Assembly: GCF_041821025.1 (NCBI RefSeq)
Contig: NZ_JBGUAY010000005.1
Coordinates: 1 to 64,000, forward strand
Direction of reading: 5' to 3'
DNA from: Egicoccus sp. AB-alg6-2
Lineage (GTDB): Bacteria; Actinomycetota; Nitriliruptoria; Nitriliruptorales; Nitriliruptoraceae
Length of the DNA: 64,000 nucleotides
Positions 11,850-17,558 of this stretch are shown here, piece after piece. Under the pieces are notes generated by a model that was not told where the DNA came from, did no database searches, and was given only the letters and a program-made list of their open reading frames with translations. A program made the translations under genes and the position numbers. Every line of letters begins with the position of its first letter. The first letter of the stretch is position 1.

Positions 11850-13279
11850 GACGTCCGCCGATCGGCAGCGACGTTGGCGGACGCGGCCGCGCGGGCGCGG
11901 CGGAGCTGGTCGCGGACGGCGCTGGACGCGGTCCCCAGGCTGCTGTCGCGCCGGTCCACGGCCTGGCGCGGATCGAGCAGGTCCGCCACGCCGCGGTCGA
12001 GGACCGGATGTGCTGCGGCCAGTTCACCGGGGTCGAGGCCGTCGAGGTCGACGCCCTTCGACTCGGCCAGCCGCACCACCTCGCCGACCACCTCGTGGGC
12101 TTCGCGGAACGGCACCCCCCGACGCACGAGTTCCTCGGCCAGGTCGGTGGCGAGGGCGAACCCGCCGACCGATGCGGCCGCCAGGCGGTCGCGGTCGAAG
12201 GTCAGCGACGCCACGGTGCCCGCGATCGCGGGGAGCACCAGCCGGAGGGTGGCCACCGCATCGAAGACCGGCTCCTTGTCCTCCTGCAGGTCCCGGTCGT
12301 AGGTCATCGGCAGGCCCTTGACCGTCGTCAGGAGCGACACGAGGTCGCCGATGACCCGGCCGGCCTTGCCGCGCACGAGCTCGGCGATGTCGGGGTTGCG
12401 CTTCTGGGGCATGATCGACGACCCGGTCGAGAACGCGTCACCGACCCGGACGAAGCCGAACTCCGCGGTGGCCCACAGCACGATCTCCTCGCCGAGGCGC
12501 GAGACGTGGACCGCCAGGATCGCGCAGGCCGACAGCACCTCGAGCGCGAAGTCGCGGGAAGCCACCGCGTCCATCGAGTTCTCGGTCACCCGCGAGAAGC
12601 CGAGGTGGTCGGCGTAGGCGGCGGGGTCGAGGCCGAGCGTGGTTCCCGCCAGGGCCCCCGAACCCAGCACCGAGGCGTCCAGCCGATCACGCGCGTCACG
12701 TAGACGCCCGGCGTCACGGTCGAGCATCCACACGTAGGCGAGCAGGTGGTGGCTCAGGAGCACGGGCTGGCCACGCTGCAGGTGGGTGTAGCCCGGCGCC
12801 AACCAGTCGAGGTGGGCCTCGGCCTGGTCGGTCAGCGCCTGCTGCAACGCGCCGACCAGGGCGACCAGTTCGTCACAGGCGTCGCGGCACCACAGGCGCA
12901 GGTCGTTCGCGATCTGGTCGTTGCGTGAGCGGCCGGCCCGCAGCTTCCCGCCGAGGGGACCGAGCTCGTCGACCAGCCAGCGCTCGATGGCGCCGTGGAC
13001 GTCTTCGTCGGTGGGCAGGAACGCGAACTCGTCGTGCGCGAACTGCCGGGCGCACCGGTCGAGGGCGGCCAGCATGTGTTGCAGTTCCTCGGCGTCGAGG
13101 ACCCCGATGCGGTGCAGTTCACGGGCGTGCGCGCGGGAGCCGTCGAGGTCCTGGCGCCACAGTTGCCGGTCGACGTGGGTGGAGACCCCCAGCTGCCAGG
13201 CGGCCTCGTCCGGGCCGGCCGTGAACCGCCCACCCCACAGTCTGCCGGCGTCGGTCGCGGCGTCGCGTGCTTCGCTCAC
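11846..13279 (-). CDS. argH: argininosuccinate lyase
   Basis: Last step of arginine synthesis: argininosuccinate to arginine plus fumarate, in the cytoplasm. 477 residues. The fumarase/aspartase superfamily signature is GSSIMPQKRNPD, with the catalytic Ser in that loop; GRSRNDQIANDLRLW and TENSMDAVASRDF are further ASL blocks. The GTG at 13279, preceded by GAGGGCACGAC, begins SEARDAATDAGRLWGGRF, matching the usual N-terminal LWGGRF. It is separated from argG by a satD/DUF3307-like pair, so it may not share the argC promoter. Confidence 0.96.
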   Translation of the reverse strand: MSEARDAATDAGRLWGGRFTAGPDEAAWQLGVSTHVDRQLWRQDLDGSRAHARELHRIGVLDAEELQHMLAALDRCARQFAHDEFAFLPTDEDVHGAIERWLVDELGPLGGKLRAGRSRNDQIANDLRLWCRDACDELVALVGALQQALTDQAEAHLDWLAPGYTHLQRGQPVLLSHHLLAYVWMLDRDAGRLRDARDRLDASVLGSGALAGTTLGLDPAAYADHLGFSRVTENSMDAVASRDFALEVLSACAILAVHVSRLGEEIVLWATAEFGFVRVGDAFSTGSSIMPQKRNPDIAELVRGKAGRVIGDLVSLLTTVKGLPMTYDRDLQEDKEPVFDAVATLRLVLPAIAGTVASLTFDRDRLAAASVGGFALATDLAEELVRRGVPFREAHEVVGEVVRLAESKGVDLDGLDPGELAAAHPVLDRGVADLLDPRQAVDRRDSSLGTASSAVRDQLRRARAAASANVAADRRTS

Positions 13280-13337
13280 GTCGTGCCCTCGGTGTCGGTG
13301 CGGCGACGATAGCCGGGCCGCCTTCGGGGTCGGTGCG

Positions 13338-13946
13338 TCAGGCATGGGCGACGAGCAGGCCCAGGGCGATGGCCTGGGCCCACGAGGCGAGCGAACCCAC
13401 GATGACGTAGTCGACCAGGGCGTCGCGGGGTGGCTGCGTCTCACCGTCGTCGGACGGTCCCAGCAGGCGGGGGCGATCCGCCCGCGCGTCCGCCAACACC
13501 TCGGCGTAGCGGAACAGCGCCTTGCCGCCGATCGGGATCACGGCCAGCGCGGGCTGTCCCCCGGCGATGCACAGCAGCAGCAACCAGCGCTCGAGCCGCC
13601 CGATCCAGCGGCCGGCGCGGAGGCCGGCCGACTCGGCGAGCTCGGGCGCGGGCAGTCGGGTCGCCCGCAACACGCCCCGGACAAGGACGTCGGCGGCCGG
13701 CCCGCACCACACCAGCGCGCCGACGAGCGCGGCACGTGCCGCCGGACCCACCCCGGCGAGCCCGAGCAGGTCGATCCGTTCGAGCGGGCGCGAGGCGTTG
13801 GCGATGGCCGCCGGAGCCACGGCGTCGACCACGATGCCGACCAGGACCAGGGCCGCGGCCGACCACAACGCCGCCACCCCACCGATGCGTCGCGCGAGCA
13901 CCGGCACCAGGGCGGCGGCGACGAGCAGGGCGAACCCGAAGGTCAC
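13338..13946 (-). CDS. DUF3307-like membrane protein
   Basis: 202 residues with five or six hydrophobic segments. The C-terminal half, with RWIGRLERWLLLL, then GGKALFRYAEV, then DYVIVGSLASWAQAI, follows the pattern of DUF3307 proteins (IGxLERxL...K..xRxxE...(E/D)YxxxGxxxS). This is a pattern call, supported by the satD gene in front; satD and DUF3307 genes are frequent partners. The GTG overlaps the satD stop (GTGA). Function unknown; published SatD work concerns secretion in streptococci and may not apply. Confidence 0.6.
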   Translation of the reverse strand: MTFGFALLVAAALVPVLARRIGGVAALWSAAALVLVGIVVDAVAPAAIANASRPLERIDLLGLAGVGPAARAALVGALVWCGPAADVLVRGVLRATRLPAPELAESAGLRAGRWIGRLERWLLLLCIAGGQPALAVIPIGGKALFRYAEVLADARADRPRLLGPSDDGETQPPRDALVDYVIVGSLASWAQAIALGLLVAHA

Positions 13947-14563
13947 GGCAGCTCCTCCGTCAGGGTCTGCAGGGTTCGTACCCAGCCGTACACCCCGTGG
14001 CCGTGCAGACGCTCGGCGACCGACTGCGGGGTGATGCCGTGGTCGTCCGCGAGCTTGCGGGCGGTTTCTCCGGCCAGCAGACCACACGCCAGTGACACGT
14101 CGAGCGGGTCGAAGCGCTGGGTCAGGCTGTCCAGCGCCACGAGCAGGGCCCGGCCGGACGCGAGGTCGCCGACGCCGTCGAGCCACCACCCCAGCCGCGG
14201 CCAGGCGCGACGCGGGGCGGTGAGGAACTCCAGGGCGGCGCGCGCGTGCCACCAGCCCGGGTCCGCCTGACCGGGGGCGCCGGCATCGACGGGGGCGTCG
14301 CCGGGTGCGACGCCGATGCCGACCCGCAACTCGACGGGCCGGTCGGCGGGCGGATCGTCCAACAGGCGCAGACGCAGGCCGGCGAGCGATCGGATGGCGG
14401 CCGGAAGGTCGTCGTAGACCGCCTGGAACTCGTCGCCGGTGGTCGGCGCGGCCGAGCGCGCCTCCTCGAGCCCGCGCACCGCGTCGCCGAGGCCGGCGAG
14501 CAGCCGCCGCTGGTCGGTATGGCGCCGGCTGTCGACGACGTCCGCGATCACGTAGACCGGCAC
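13943..14563 (-). CDS. SatD-family protein with C-terminal helix-turn-helix
   Basis: 206 residues. The N-terminus VPVYVIADVVDSRR and the motif PTTGDEFQAVY fit the SatD family (xYVIIGDIVxSR, TxGDEFQ), as does VELRVGIGV. The C-terminal stretch KLADDHGITPQSVAERLHGH looks like a helix-turn-helix, suggesting DNA binding. I chose the GTG at 14563, with AGGAG five bases upstream and the conserved start directly after; longer starts read into the promoter repeats. The gene has its own repeat-rich upstream region, unlike the arg genes around it. Confidence 0.75.
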   Translation of the reverse strand: MPVYVIADVVDSRRHTDQRRLLAGLGDAVRGLEEARSAAPTTGDEFQAVYDDLPAAIRSLAGLRLRLLDDPPADRPVELRVGIGVAPGDAPVDAGAPGQADPGWWHARAALEFLTAPRRAWPRLGWWLDGVGDLASGRALLVALDSLTQRFDPLDVSLACGLLAGETARKLADDHGITPQSVAERLHGHGVYGWVRTLQTLTEELP

Positions 14564-14571
14564 GGGCGCTC

Positions 14572-14638
14572 CTGTCAGGCAATGGAACTGTGTCAGCGTG
14601 CCGACAGGTGTATTGCCTGTCAAACGGCGAGGTCAGGC
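14572..14638 (-). promoter_or_regulatory. satD promoter with repeated CTGTCA-type half-sites (putative operator)
   Basis: Five related half-sites sit in 67 bp: CTGTCAGG (14572-14579), TGTCAG (14591-14596), CGACAGG (14602-14608), CCTGTCAA (14616-14623) and GGTCAGGC (14631-14638). The outer pair forms an inverted repeat, CAGGCAAT at 14576-14583 and ATTGCCTG at 14612-14619. On the minus strand 14618-14623 reads TTGACA, identical to a consensus -35. The first half-site overlaps the ribosome site. Binding by SatD's own HTH is inference. Confidence 0.5.
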
Positions 14639-14677
14639 GATCCACCTGGCAGGATCCCGAGTGCGCATCGCCTCGCC

Positions 14678-14760
14678 ATGTCACGCCACCACGTCAATGT
14701 CGCGCCGATCCCGCATCCGTGCGGGGCTGCCGCGACATCGAGGTGGAGACGCGACATGAT
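14678..14760. repeat. long palindromic element, copy A
   Basis: An imperfect palindrome with about 38-bp arms around a TCCG loop: core CCCGCA-TCCG-TGCGGG, with TGTCACG and TGTCGCG on the left and two CGCGACA on the right, half-sites 19 bp apart on each side. A second copy at 58977-59059 aligns without gaps at roughly 75% identity. It lies about 70 bases beyond the argG stop. It may act as a terminator or be a dispersed REP-like element. Confidence 0.65.
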
Positions 14761-14827
14761 GGAGCCGCGCCGCGCCGCGCCGCACCGCATCGCGCCGGTG
14801 ACGGGGGCGACGCCGAGCGTCGACGCG

Positions 14828-16084
14828 TCAGAACTTCTCGCCGAGGCCCTTGACCCGTGCCGCCCAGGTCTTCAAGGGCAGGCCCCACAGCTTGACGAAG
14901 CCCTCGGCCAGCGACTGGTCGAACTGGTCCTGCGCGTCGTAGGTCGCCATCTCGTAGTCGTACAGGCCGGAGTCCTCGCTGCGGCGGCCGACGACCGTCG
15001 CGTGGCCCTTGAACAGCTCGACGCGCACCTCGCCGTTGACGTAGTGGTTGGCCTCGTCCATGAAGGCGTCCAGCGCCTTCTTCAGCGGCCCCCACCACAG
15101 CCCGTTGTAGATCAGCTGGGCATAGCGGCCCTCCTCGGCGCGCTTGTGCTCGGCGAGCTCCTGCTCGAGGCACAGGTCCTCGAGGTCGCGGTGGGCCGTC
15201 AGGAGGGTGATCGCACCCGGGCACTCGTAGATCTCGCGGCTCTTGATGCCGACCAGGCGGTCCTCGATCATGTCGATGCGCCCGACGCCGTGGGCACCGG
15301 CGCGGGTGTCGATCTCCGCGACGAGTTCCGCCAGAGGGAGCTCTTTGCCGTCCAGGCTGACGGGGACGCCTGCCTGGAATCCGATGACGACCTCCTCGGG
15401 CGTGTCGGGGGCATCCTTGACGCTGACCGTGCGCTCGAAGACGTCCTCCGGCGGCGCCTCCCACGGGTCCTCGAGGATCCCGCACTCGGCGGTGCGGCCC
15501 CAGGCGTTCTCGTCGATCGAGTACGGCGACGCCTTGGACTTGACCGGGATCGGGATGCCGCGCTCGTTGGCGTAGTCGATGGCGGCGTCGCGCGACAGGC
15601 CCCACTCCCGGATCGGGGCGATGGTGTCGAGGTCCGGTGCGAGGCACATCGTGCCGACCTCGAAGCGGACCTGGTCGTTGCCCTTGCCGGTGCAGCCGTG
15701 CGCAACGCCGGCCGCGCCGGTCTCGCGCGCGACCCGGACGAGGTGCTTGACGATCAGCGGTCGGGACAGGGCCGACACCAGCGGGTACTTGCCCATGTAC
15801 ATCGCGTTGGCCTTGAGGGCCGGGCGGATGAAGTCGGTGGCGTACTCGTCGCGCGCGTCGACGACCACCGACTCGACCGCACCGCAGTCGAGCGCCCGCT
15901 GGCGGATCTCCTCGAGGTCGTCGACACCCTGACCGACGTCGATGGCGCACGCGACGACGTCGACGTTCTTGTGCTCCTGCATCCACTGGATGGCGACGGA
16001 GGTGTCGAGGCCGCCGGAATAGGCGAGGACGATACGAGGGCGAGTTCCGGCGTTCGCCGGCTGCTCGACGCTGGGCTTGGACAT
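14828..16084 (-). CDS. argG: argininosuccinate synthase
   Basis: ATP-dependent joining of citrulline and aspartate, the penultimate step of arginine synthesis. 418 residues. The N-type ATP pyrophosphatase loop is [30 protein letters not shown] and [20 protein letters not shown] are typical ArgG blocks. ATG with AGGAG six bases upstream, 20 bases after the argR stop. The roughly 264-base stretch downstream carries a palindromic element and the satD promoter region. Confidence 0.97.
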
Positions 16085-16104: not shown

Positions 16105-16593
16105 TCAGGCGGGAGGGGTCGGGATCGCGTCGGCGAGGCCGGCGCGGGATCGCAGGTCGGCGGCGAGGTCGCGGCCGGGGAGCGTCTCGGCGGCGACCAC
16201 GAGGACCGTGTCGTCGCCGGAGACGGTGGCGAGCACCCCGTCGAGTTCGGCGAGGTCGATCGCCGAGGCGACGGGGTGGGCGCAGGCGGGCGGCGTGCGC
16301 AGGACCGTGAGATTGGCGCTGTGCGAGACGGAGACGACGAACTGGCGCAGTGTCTCGTCGAGGCGGCTGCGTGCCGACCCCGGACCGGGATCGACGGCGA
16401 GGCGGTACACCAGCGTGCCGTCCGCGCCACGGACCTTCACCGCGCCCAGTTCGTCGAGGTCGCGACTGACGGTCGCCTGGTGGGCGTCGACACCGCGTGC
16501 GGCCAGCGCGGCGCGGACCTCGCTCTGCGAGCCGAGGTCGTGGTCGCTGATCAGCTCGCGCAGCAACTGCTGGCGGCGACGCTTGTCTGCCAT
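16105..16593 (-). CDS. argR: arginine repressor ArgR
   Basis: Arginine-dependent repressor of the pathway encoded around it. 162 residues. The winged-helix N-terminal domain has [34 protein letters not shown], with the ATVSRDL recognition segment. The C-terminal oligomerisation and arginine-binding domain contains [25 protein letters not shown], with the GDDT motif. The ATG at 16593 has GAGGAG eight bases upstream. The likely operator is the ARG box before argC. Confidence 0.95.
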
Positions 16594-16613
16594 GGCGGCG
16601 GCTCCTCGGGCGC

Positions 16614-17558
16614 TCAGGCCATCAGCCCGGCCAGCAGCGCCTTCTGGGCGTGCAGCCGGTTCTCGGCCTGGTCGAACACGCGCGAGGCCGGACCGTCGAT
16701 GACCTCGGCGGTCACCTCCTCGCCACGGTGCGCGGGCAGGCAGTGCAGGAAGACCGCGTCGGCGGCGGCGTGCCCCATCAGCTCGGGCGTCACGCGGTAG
16801 GGAACGAACCGGTCGGCACGCTCCCCCGCCTCGGACTCCTGTCCCATCGACGCCCACACGTCGGCGTAGACGGCGTCGGCGTCCAGCACCGCCTCGATGG
16901 GATCGGTCGTGAGCAGGATGCTGGCGCCGCGGTCGGCCGCCAGCTCCCGCGCCCGGGCGACGATGGCGGTGTCGGGGGCGTAGCCCTCGGGATGGCCGAC
17001 GCGCACCGACAGGCCGACCTTGGCGCCCGCCAGCAGCAGGGAGTTCGCGACGTTGTTGCCGTCGCCGACGTAGGCGAGGCTGCGACCCTCGAACCCGCCA
17101 TGGACCTCGCGGAAGGTCTGCAGGTCGGCGACCGCCTGGCAGGGGTGTTCGAGATCGGTCAACGCGTTGACGACCGGGATGTCGGCCGCGTCGGCGAGCT
17201 CCTGGAGCCGGTCCTGGCCGAAGGTGCGGACGACGATGGCATGGACGTAGCGCGAGAGCACGGCGCCCGTGTCGGCGACGGTCTCGCCACGGCCCAGTTG
17301 CAGTTCGGCGGACGACAGCGGTAGGGGCTGCCCGCCGAGCTCGGTCACCGCGACCTGGAACGACACGCGCGTGCGGGTCGACGGCTTCTCGAACACCAGC
17401 GCAACGGTGCGTCCGCGCAGCCCCCCGTGGGCGAGTTCGGACCCGGCGGCCAGTCGCTCCGCCCGGTCGGCCTTGAACGCGTCCGCGGCGTCGAGGACCC
17501 GCAGGAGCTGCTCGGTCGAGAGGTCGTCGATGGACAGGAAGTGCTCCGGGAACGGCAT
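16614..17558 (-). CDS. argF: ornithine carbamoyltransferase
   Basis: Makes citrulline from ornithine and carbamoyl phosphate. 314 residues. Carbamoyl-phosphate loop [20 protein letters not shown], and the ornithine-specific [13 protein letters not shown] near the C-terminus separate it from aspartate carbamoyltransferase. Sits between argD (11-base gap) and argR (20-base gap). Carbamoyl phosphate would come from CarAB; carB is at the right edge of the window. Confidence 0.96.

Follow-up and report, generated by a model that had tools for sequence, protein, structure and literature searches.

The name SatD comes from a streptococcal acid-tolerance operon, which is reportedly the subject of Kremer 2001, and we know of no molecular function assigned to the SatD family (PF16264). 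Several described proteins resemble parts of the SatD-like protein analysed here. The class III nucleotidyl cyclases and the archaeal GTP cyclohydrolase III have the fold of its residues 1-150, and PucR/CdaR-type regulators likewise join a palm-fold sensor-like domain to a C-terminal helix-turn-helix (HTH). KorA/TrfB, an autorepressor of IncP plasmids with a similar HTH, acts at palindromic operators lying over promoters, which are single sites and not arrays phased at 28 bp. Three published sources are linked to our protein at the level of the gene name. The excerpted part of a Streptococcus pyogenes study gives satD as essential in the tested strains and yet present in about 71% of genomes, and thus accessory (PMC11323703); a Streptococcus suis table, as excerpted, enters satD as a DNA-binding protein (PMC12005413), and part of a Fusobacterium annotation paper carries the acid-tolerance label (PMC10326533). 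A gene that is essential yet accessory, as in the S. pyogenes excerpt, fits a repressor of a harmful neighbour. No description of a SatD operator was found in the open-access literature among the matches listed.

The window (the whole 64,000-nucleotide stretch of DNA that was analysed) contains a satD-like gene and a probable co-transcribed partner:

13943..14563, minus strand: satD-like gene, GTG start, 206 aa, with a nucleotidyl-cyclase-like N-terminal domain and a C-terminal HTH (from Pfam, model and fold search)
13338..13946, minus strand: membrane protein gene, sharing 4 bp with the end of satD (from signature and alignment)

The window protein matches PF16264 over residues 6-115 (E 5.7e-5), and because the score of 23.3 bits is under the curated cut-off of 29 bits we refer to it as satD-like; the match covers the N-terminal 110 residues and ends ahead of the HTH. 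Ten of 16 aligned relatives (profile A1) match the same family, the best at 4.5e-16, and identity between the window protein and distant relatives is 26-36%; by alignment it is homologous to proteins that match the SatD family. Neither it nor the membrane protein has an NCBIfam match. An AlphaFold model built from 8 sequences (pLDDT 88.1, pTM 0.83) places residues 1-150 in the nucleotidyl-cyclase/GGDEF/GTP-cyclohydrolase-III fold, with fold-search matches to 2qv6_A (Z 13.5, 113 residues aligned, rmsd 2.5) and 5mbg (Z 12.6). Identity to these enzymes is 10-18%, and SatD differs from them in being fused to a DNA-binding domain. An Asp in strand 1 and the one in the GDEF motif are the same in all 104 relatives compared (the short clade F excluded), and a GP.WW.AR stretch, which presumably differs from the cyclase Asn/Arg motif, is conserved among the SatD relatives.

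The model has four helices within residues 153-202, a part that the structural matches of the cyclase-like domain barely cover. Its assignment as an HTH comes from sequence: among the 16 relatives, Pfam finds Sigma70_r4_2 in ten and KORA in three, and the C-terminal part has weak PDB matches to sigma factors, MntR and TrfB (E 0.03-0.06 for TrfB); the window protein searched on its own against Pfam matched no HTH model, only the SatD family. The HTH-like segment at the end of SatD pointed out in a first-pass annotation is thus a predicted HTH on the model helices and the matches of its relatives. KorA/TrfB differs in lacking a cyclase-like domain. The Foldseek top match of the model is 3onq (E 9e-4), which we take to be, with Rv2242 (9f80), of the PucR/CdaR type with a GGDEF-like domain and an HTH, but the TM score is 0.24 at an rmsd of 15 Å and an overall arrangement common to the two is unsupported at that value; no CdaR family occurs among the Pfam matches of the SatD relatives at E 0.1.

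The minus-strand DNA ahead of the GTG at 14563 is TTTGACAGGCAATACACCTGTCGGCACGCTGACACAGTTCCATTGCCTGACAGGAGCGCCCGTG, and within it we recognise the following features:

14634..14648, minus strand: P0, candidate operator palindrome CAG-N9-CTG, upstream of the -35 and 29 bp from P1
14618..14623, minus strand: TTGACA, probable -35 box, invariant in 4/4 close species
14605..14619, minus strand: P1, candidate operator palindrome, the core of TGACAGG-N7-CCTGTCG (14602-14622), overlapping the -35
14576..14590, minus strand: P2, candidate operator palindrome CAG-N9-CTG, with the putative -10 on one side and the ribosome site on the other, in the same register in 4/4 close species
14569..14573, minus strand: AGGAG ribosome-binding site, read from the sequence; the outer arm of P2 extends into it

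The three CAG-N9-CTG palindromes are separated from their neighbours by a step of exactly 29 bp, and the array spans the -35 box and the start and ribosome-site region; P0 extends slightly past the end of the interval first noted. Five CTGTCA/TGACAG-type half-sites had been reported in 67 bp, and all five lie where they were placed, although only CTGTCA at 14572 and 14617 are exact, with GTGTCA (14590) and CGACAG (14602) having one mismatch each and GGTCAG (about 14632) two. The other elements described there were confirmed, namely an 8-bp inverted pair, CAGGCAAT (14576-14583) and ATTGCCTG (14612-14619), each occurring once in the window, a TTGACA matching the consensus -35, and a half-site (14572) that overlaps AGGAG and lies 5 nt from the GTG. 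CACGCT (14595-14600) is a putative but weak -10; a consensus sigma-70 scan at satD found no promoter and no consensus -10, and no terminator-like site was found in the leader.

The density of half-sites is not unusual, as the window reaches 4 in 67 bp (counting those with one mismatch or fewer) and the densest 67 bp in 20 order-1 shuffles have 4-6. The arrangement is distinctive, with the palindromes in 29-bp order giving two instances of the double pattern and one of the triple, against shuffled means of 0.0 for both. The tandem double pattern has no further exact copy in the genome (3,737,302 bases in 24 contigs), and P1 is the best genome-wide match to TGACAGG-N7-CCTGTCA. Neither whole-genome search gave a regulon signal: this motif with three or fewer mismatches has 58 matches against 61 for a reversed control, and the tandem pattern with one mismatch has 12 against 54. 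The unique tandem pattern, and the lack of excess of the single motif over the reversed control, indicate that the array is local rather than part of a regulon. We also note that TGACAG/CTGTCA occurs 4 times in the 64 kb where order-1 shuffles predict 22, and that two of the four are in the satD promoter.

Three other genomes (L003, L004 and L005) carry satD-like genes with 64-70% protein identity to that of the window. In a gapless alignment of the four promoters anchored on TTGACA, both arms of P2 (CAG at columns 33-35, CTG at 45-47) are identical in all four species. The left arm of P1 (columns 4-6) is also kept in 4/4, and its right-arm CTG (columns 16-18) in 3/4, L004 having CTT. At P0 the right arm, within CCTGAC at -14, is kept in 4/4, and the left arm is present in the window only. 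Outside the -35, 12 of 13 palindrome-core columns are invariant, compared with 6 of 77 others; the associated p of 8e-10 is only indicative, since the columns were chosen after viewing the sequences and the unconserved left arm of P0 was omitted.

A wider survey used profile A1 as the query, which matched 25 of 396 genomes of the phylum, 33 of 150 of one family, 37 of 98 of one genus, and 124 of 245 of one order. Up to 30 loci were retained per search, and the resulting 142 loci yielded 117 non-identical full-length relatives once surplus loci, partial matches and duplicates of the same protein had been removed, which we sorted into clades A-G by search source and kinship, not from a tree. Inverted half-sites with a 7-8 bp spacer and a period of about 28 bp are recurrent among the 117 promoters, and each lineage has its own spelling of the half-site (ACAGG, ATAAC, ACAAC, ATAAG, TGAAG or TCAAG). 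A search for GACAG half-sites before other satD genes had been suggested; these are indeed present at the three closest relatives found, but the spelling is limited to the window clade (4 of 117 promoters), and the other clades have palindromes of their own that share this geometry.

When exact 5+5 inverted repeats are tallied for each spacer, the most frequent is TGAAG-N7-CTTCA in clade E (31/31 promoters) and clade G (18/30), ATAAC-N7-GTTAT in clade B (5/7), and ATAAG-N7-CTTAT in clade D (9/26), while the commonest repeats of clade F are CTTGA-N10 (7/13), TTGAT-N8 (7/13) and TCAAG-N8 (5/13); in shuffled promoters the best inverted repeat occurs in at most three loci. With one or no mismatch, N7 palindromes are found in 3/4 promoters of clade A (ACAGG), 5/7 of B, 1/1 of C (ACAAC), 14/26 of D, 31/31 of E and 22/30 of G. 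Matches to the type of another clade are few (TGAAG in 2/26 clade D promoters; ATAAG in one and TGAAG in two of five unassigned promoters), and the five N7 motifs are absent from control DNA (0 of 117 coding stretches and 0 of 115 stretches 500-700 bp upstream), so that by computation these sites are restricted to satD promoters. Tolerating up to three mismatches of ten, gaps of 28 bp between palindromes account for 60/66 in clade E, 37/47 in G, 15/22 in D, 15/23 in F and 3/3 in C, and gaps of 29 bp for 5/7 in the window clade; in clade B a promoter mostly has just one palindrome, and the palindrome of this clade is missing from two of the seven (L009, L010). In 29/31 clade E promoters a TANNNT lies inside a palindrome spacer, and in 29/31 a half-site is followed directly by the start codon. 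Mapped on a tree built from the N-terminal part with the HTH left off, operator type requires seven changes where five is the least possible, omitting the 25 of 117 promoters to which a single half-site type was not assignable at one mismatch or fewer. The recognition-helix segment also varies by clade, being of the TPQSVAERLHDHG type in the window clade, QPAIARR in B, QSAVSQ in D and SASAVSQRA in E. As one set of promoters served both to discover and to count the half-sites, only the shuffles, the control stretches and the comparison within one genus described below are independent tests. A clade of shorter SatD-like proteins (L043-L046, L081-L089) has TCAAG-N8-CTTGA arrays mostly at 28 bp and is without the membrane partner.

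In one genus, arrays of the form TGAAG-N7-CTTCA-N11-TGAAG-N7-CTTCA (up to 2 mismatches of 20) are present in 38 of 98 genomes, with none for a reversed control, and satD is present in 37; the two occur together in 36 (Fisher p 3e-23, a value that counts kin genomes, those of one genus not being independent). Among the exceptions, the array that accompanies satD in G580 is degenerate, and G607 and G655 have arrays with no satD at those places. The G655 array is flanked by alcohol-dehydrogenase-like and nitronate-monooxygenase-like genes (named by eye) that flank satD in its relatives, and by eye both lone arrays look like leftovers of satD loss.

The probable membrane partner has a signature, GGRWIGxLER..K..RFPE..VGSLASW, that adjoins satD in 65 of the 117 loci (A 3/4, B 0/7, C 0/1, D 18/26, E 27/31, F 0/13, G 15/30, others 2/5). 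It matched no Pfam family; the name DUF3307 was dropped on finding no Pfam match to DUF3307 among seven such proteins, and a role in anti-phage defence was set aside, the matches being weak and to one relative. In some of four clade B loci without the partner (L006, L008, L011, L012), a gene that by eye is chlorite-dismutase/HemQ-like follows about 0.6 kb downstream. In the window, L004 and L005, argG and argH are separated by the satD and membrane protein pair, whereas in a sister genome (G009, L145) argG and argH abut, with no satD and no space for an array; the pair and its operator thus appear to come and go as a cassette. This junction (13279-14828 in the window) is variable across the family, and a glyoxalase/VOC-like gene (by eye) follows argG in L143, L149 and L146 and precedes satD in L015. 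One plasmid record is represented among the relatives, the Arthrobacter plasmid pZXY21 (CP017422.1, L060), which is typed as conjugative and carries the pair.

We propose, with a probability of about 0.8, that SatD is an autorepressor that would act on a phased operator array to control itself and the co-transcribed membrane protein. The C-terminal HTH, in SatD dimers, would bind palindromes in which a 7-bp spacer separates two half-sites of 5-6 bp, with two to four palindromes covering the promoter at a step of 28 bp (29 bp in the window clade). Filled sites would bar RNA polymerase from the -35 and -10, and in the window also cover the transcription start and ribosome site, silencing the operon of satD and the membrane protein gene. 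The cyclase-like domain, with its two invariant acidic positions, is probably a sensor whose ligand, perhaps a nucleotide, would lift repression. Self-repression would account for the association of array and satD, for the clade-specific spelling and for the lack of a regulon. That SatD represses is suggested by the position of the array, which in the window lies on the -35 and between promoter and ribosome site, and in clade E on the TANNNT -10. The comparative genomics, to the depth that it allows, supports the earlier suggestion of a DNA-binding SatD that represses its own gene.

The same sites could serve an activating SatD, perhaps working through its HTH, which resembles sigma-70 region 4, and P0 lies upstream in a possible position for activator binding; sites that cover the -35, the ribosome site and the putative start region in the window, and the -10 in clade E, are however typical of repression, and we consider activation unlikely. 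Slightly less likely still is that another protein binds the array, either ArgR (encoded at 16105-16650) or a host factor, with satD downstream by coincidence. The location between argG and argH in three genomes, with argR in the same cluster, is in keeping with this, but arrays accompany satD in further gene contexts and follow it within one genus, their spelling shifts with the SatD clade, and the abutting argG and argH of G009 have neither satD nor space for an array.

It is very improbable that the inverted repeats form RNA hairpins in the leader, acting in attenuation or translational control. P2 would be transcribed and touches the ribosome site, but P0 and P1 lie ahead of the -35 or on it and would stay outside the transcript, the arms are just 3-6 bp, the constant 28/29-bp phase suits protein contacts, and the leader has no terminator-like site. 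Chance repeats in a GC-rich promoter have the least to recommend them, for although shuffles equal the raw half-site count, they do not explain a register kept in four species, the genome-wide uniqueness of the array, or the survey of 117 promoters with its controls.

Autorepression by SatD would connect this family with a defined operator whose half-site is lineage-specific and whose phase is fixed, making it a directly testable repressor, and the matched recognition helices and half-sites are a natural set in which to study specificity change. More tentatively, and we think this rather doubtful in full, SatD-like proteins may be widespread one-component nucleotide-sensing repressors that bind cooperatively to 28-bp arrays, have repeatedly switched half-site and HTH together, and curb a membrane protein that is potentially harmful. 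This suggests a reason for satD being essential in the strains examined without being universal: if true, its essentiality where present in S. pyogenes would reflect loss of the brake on the membrane protein.
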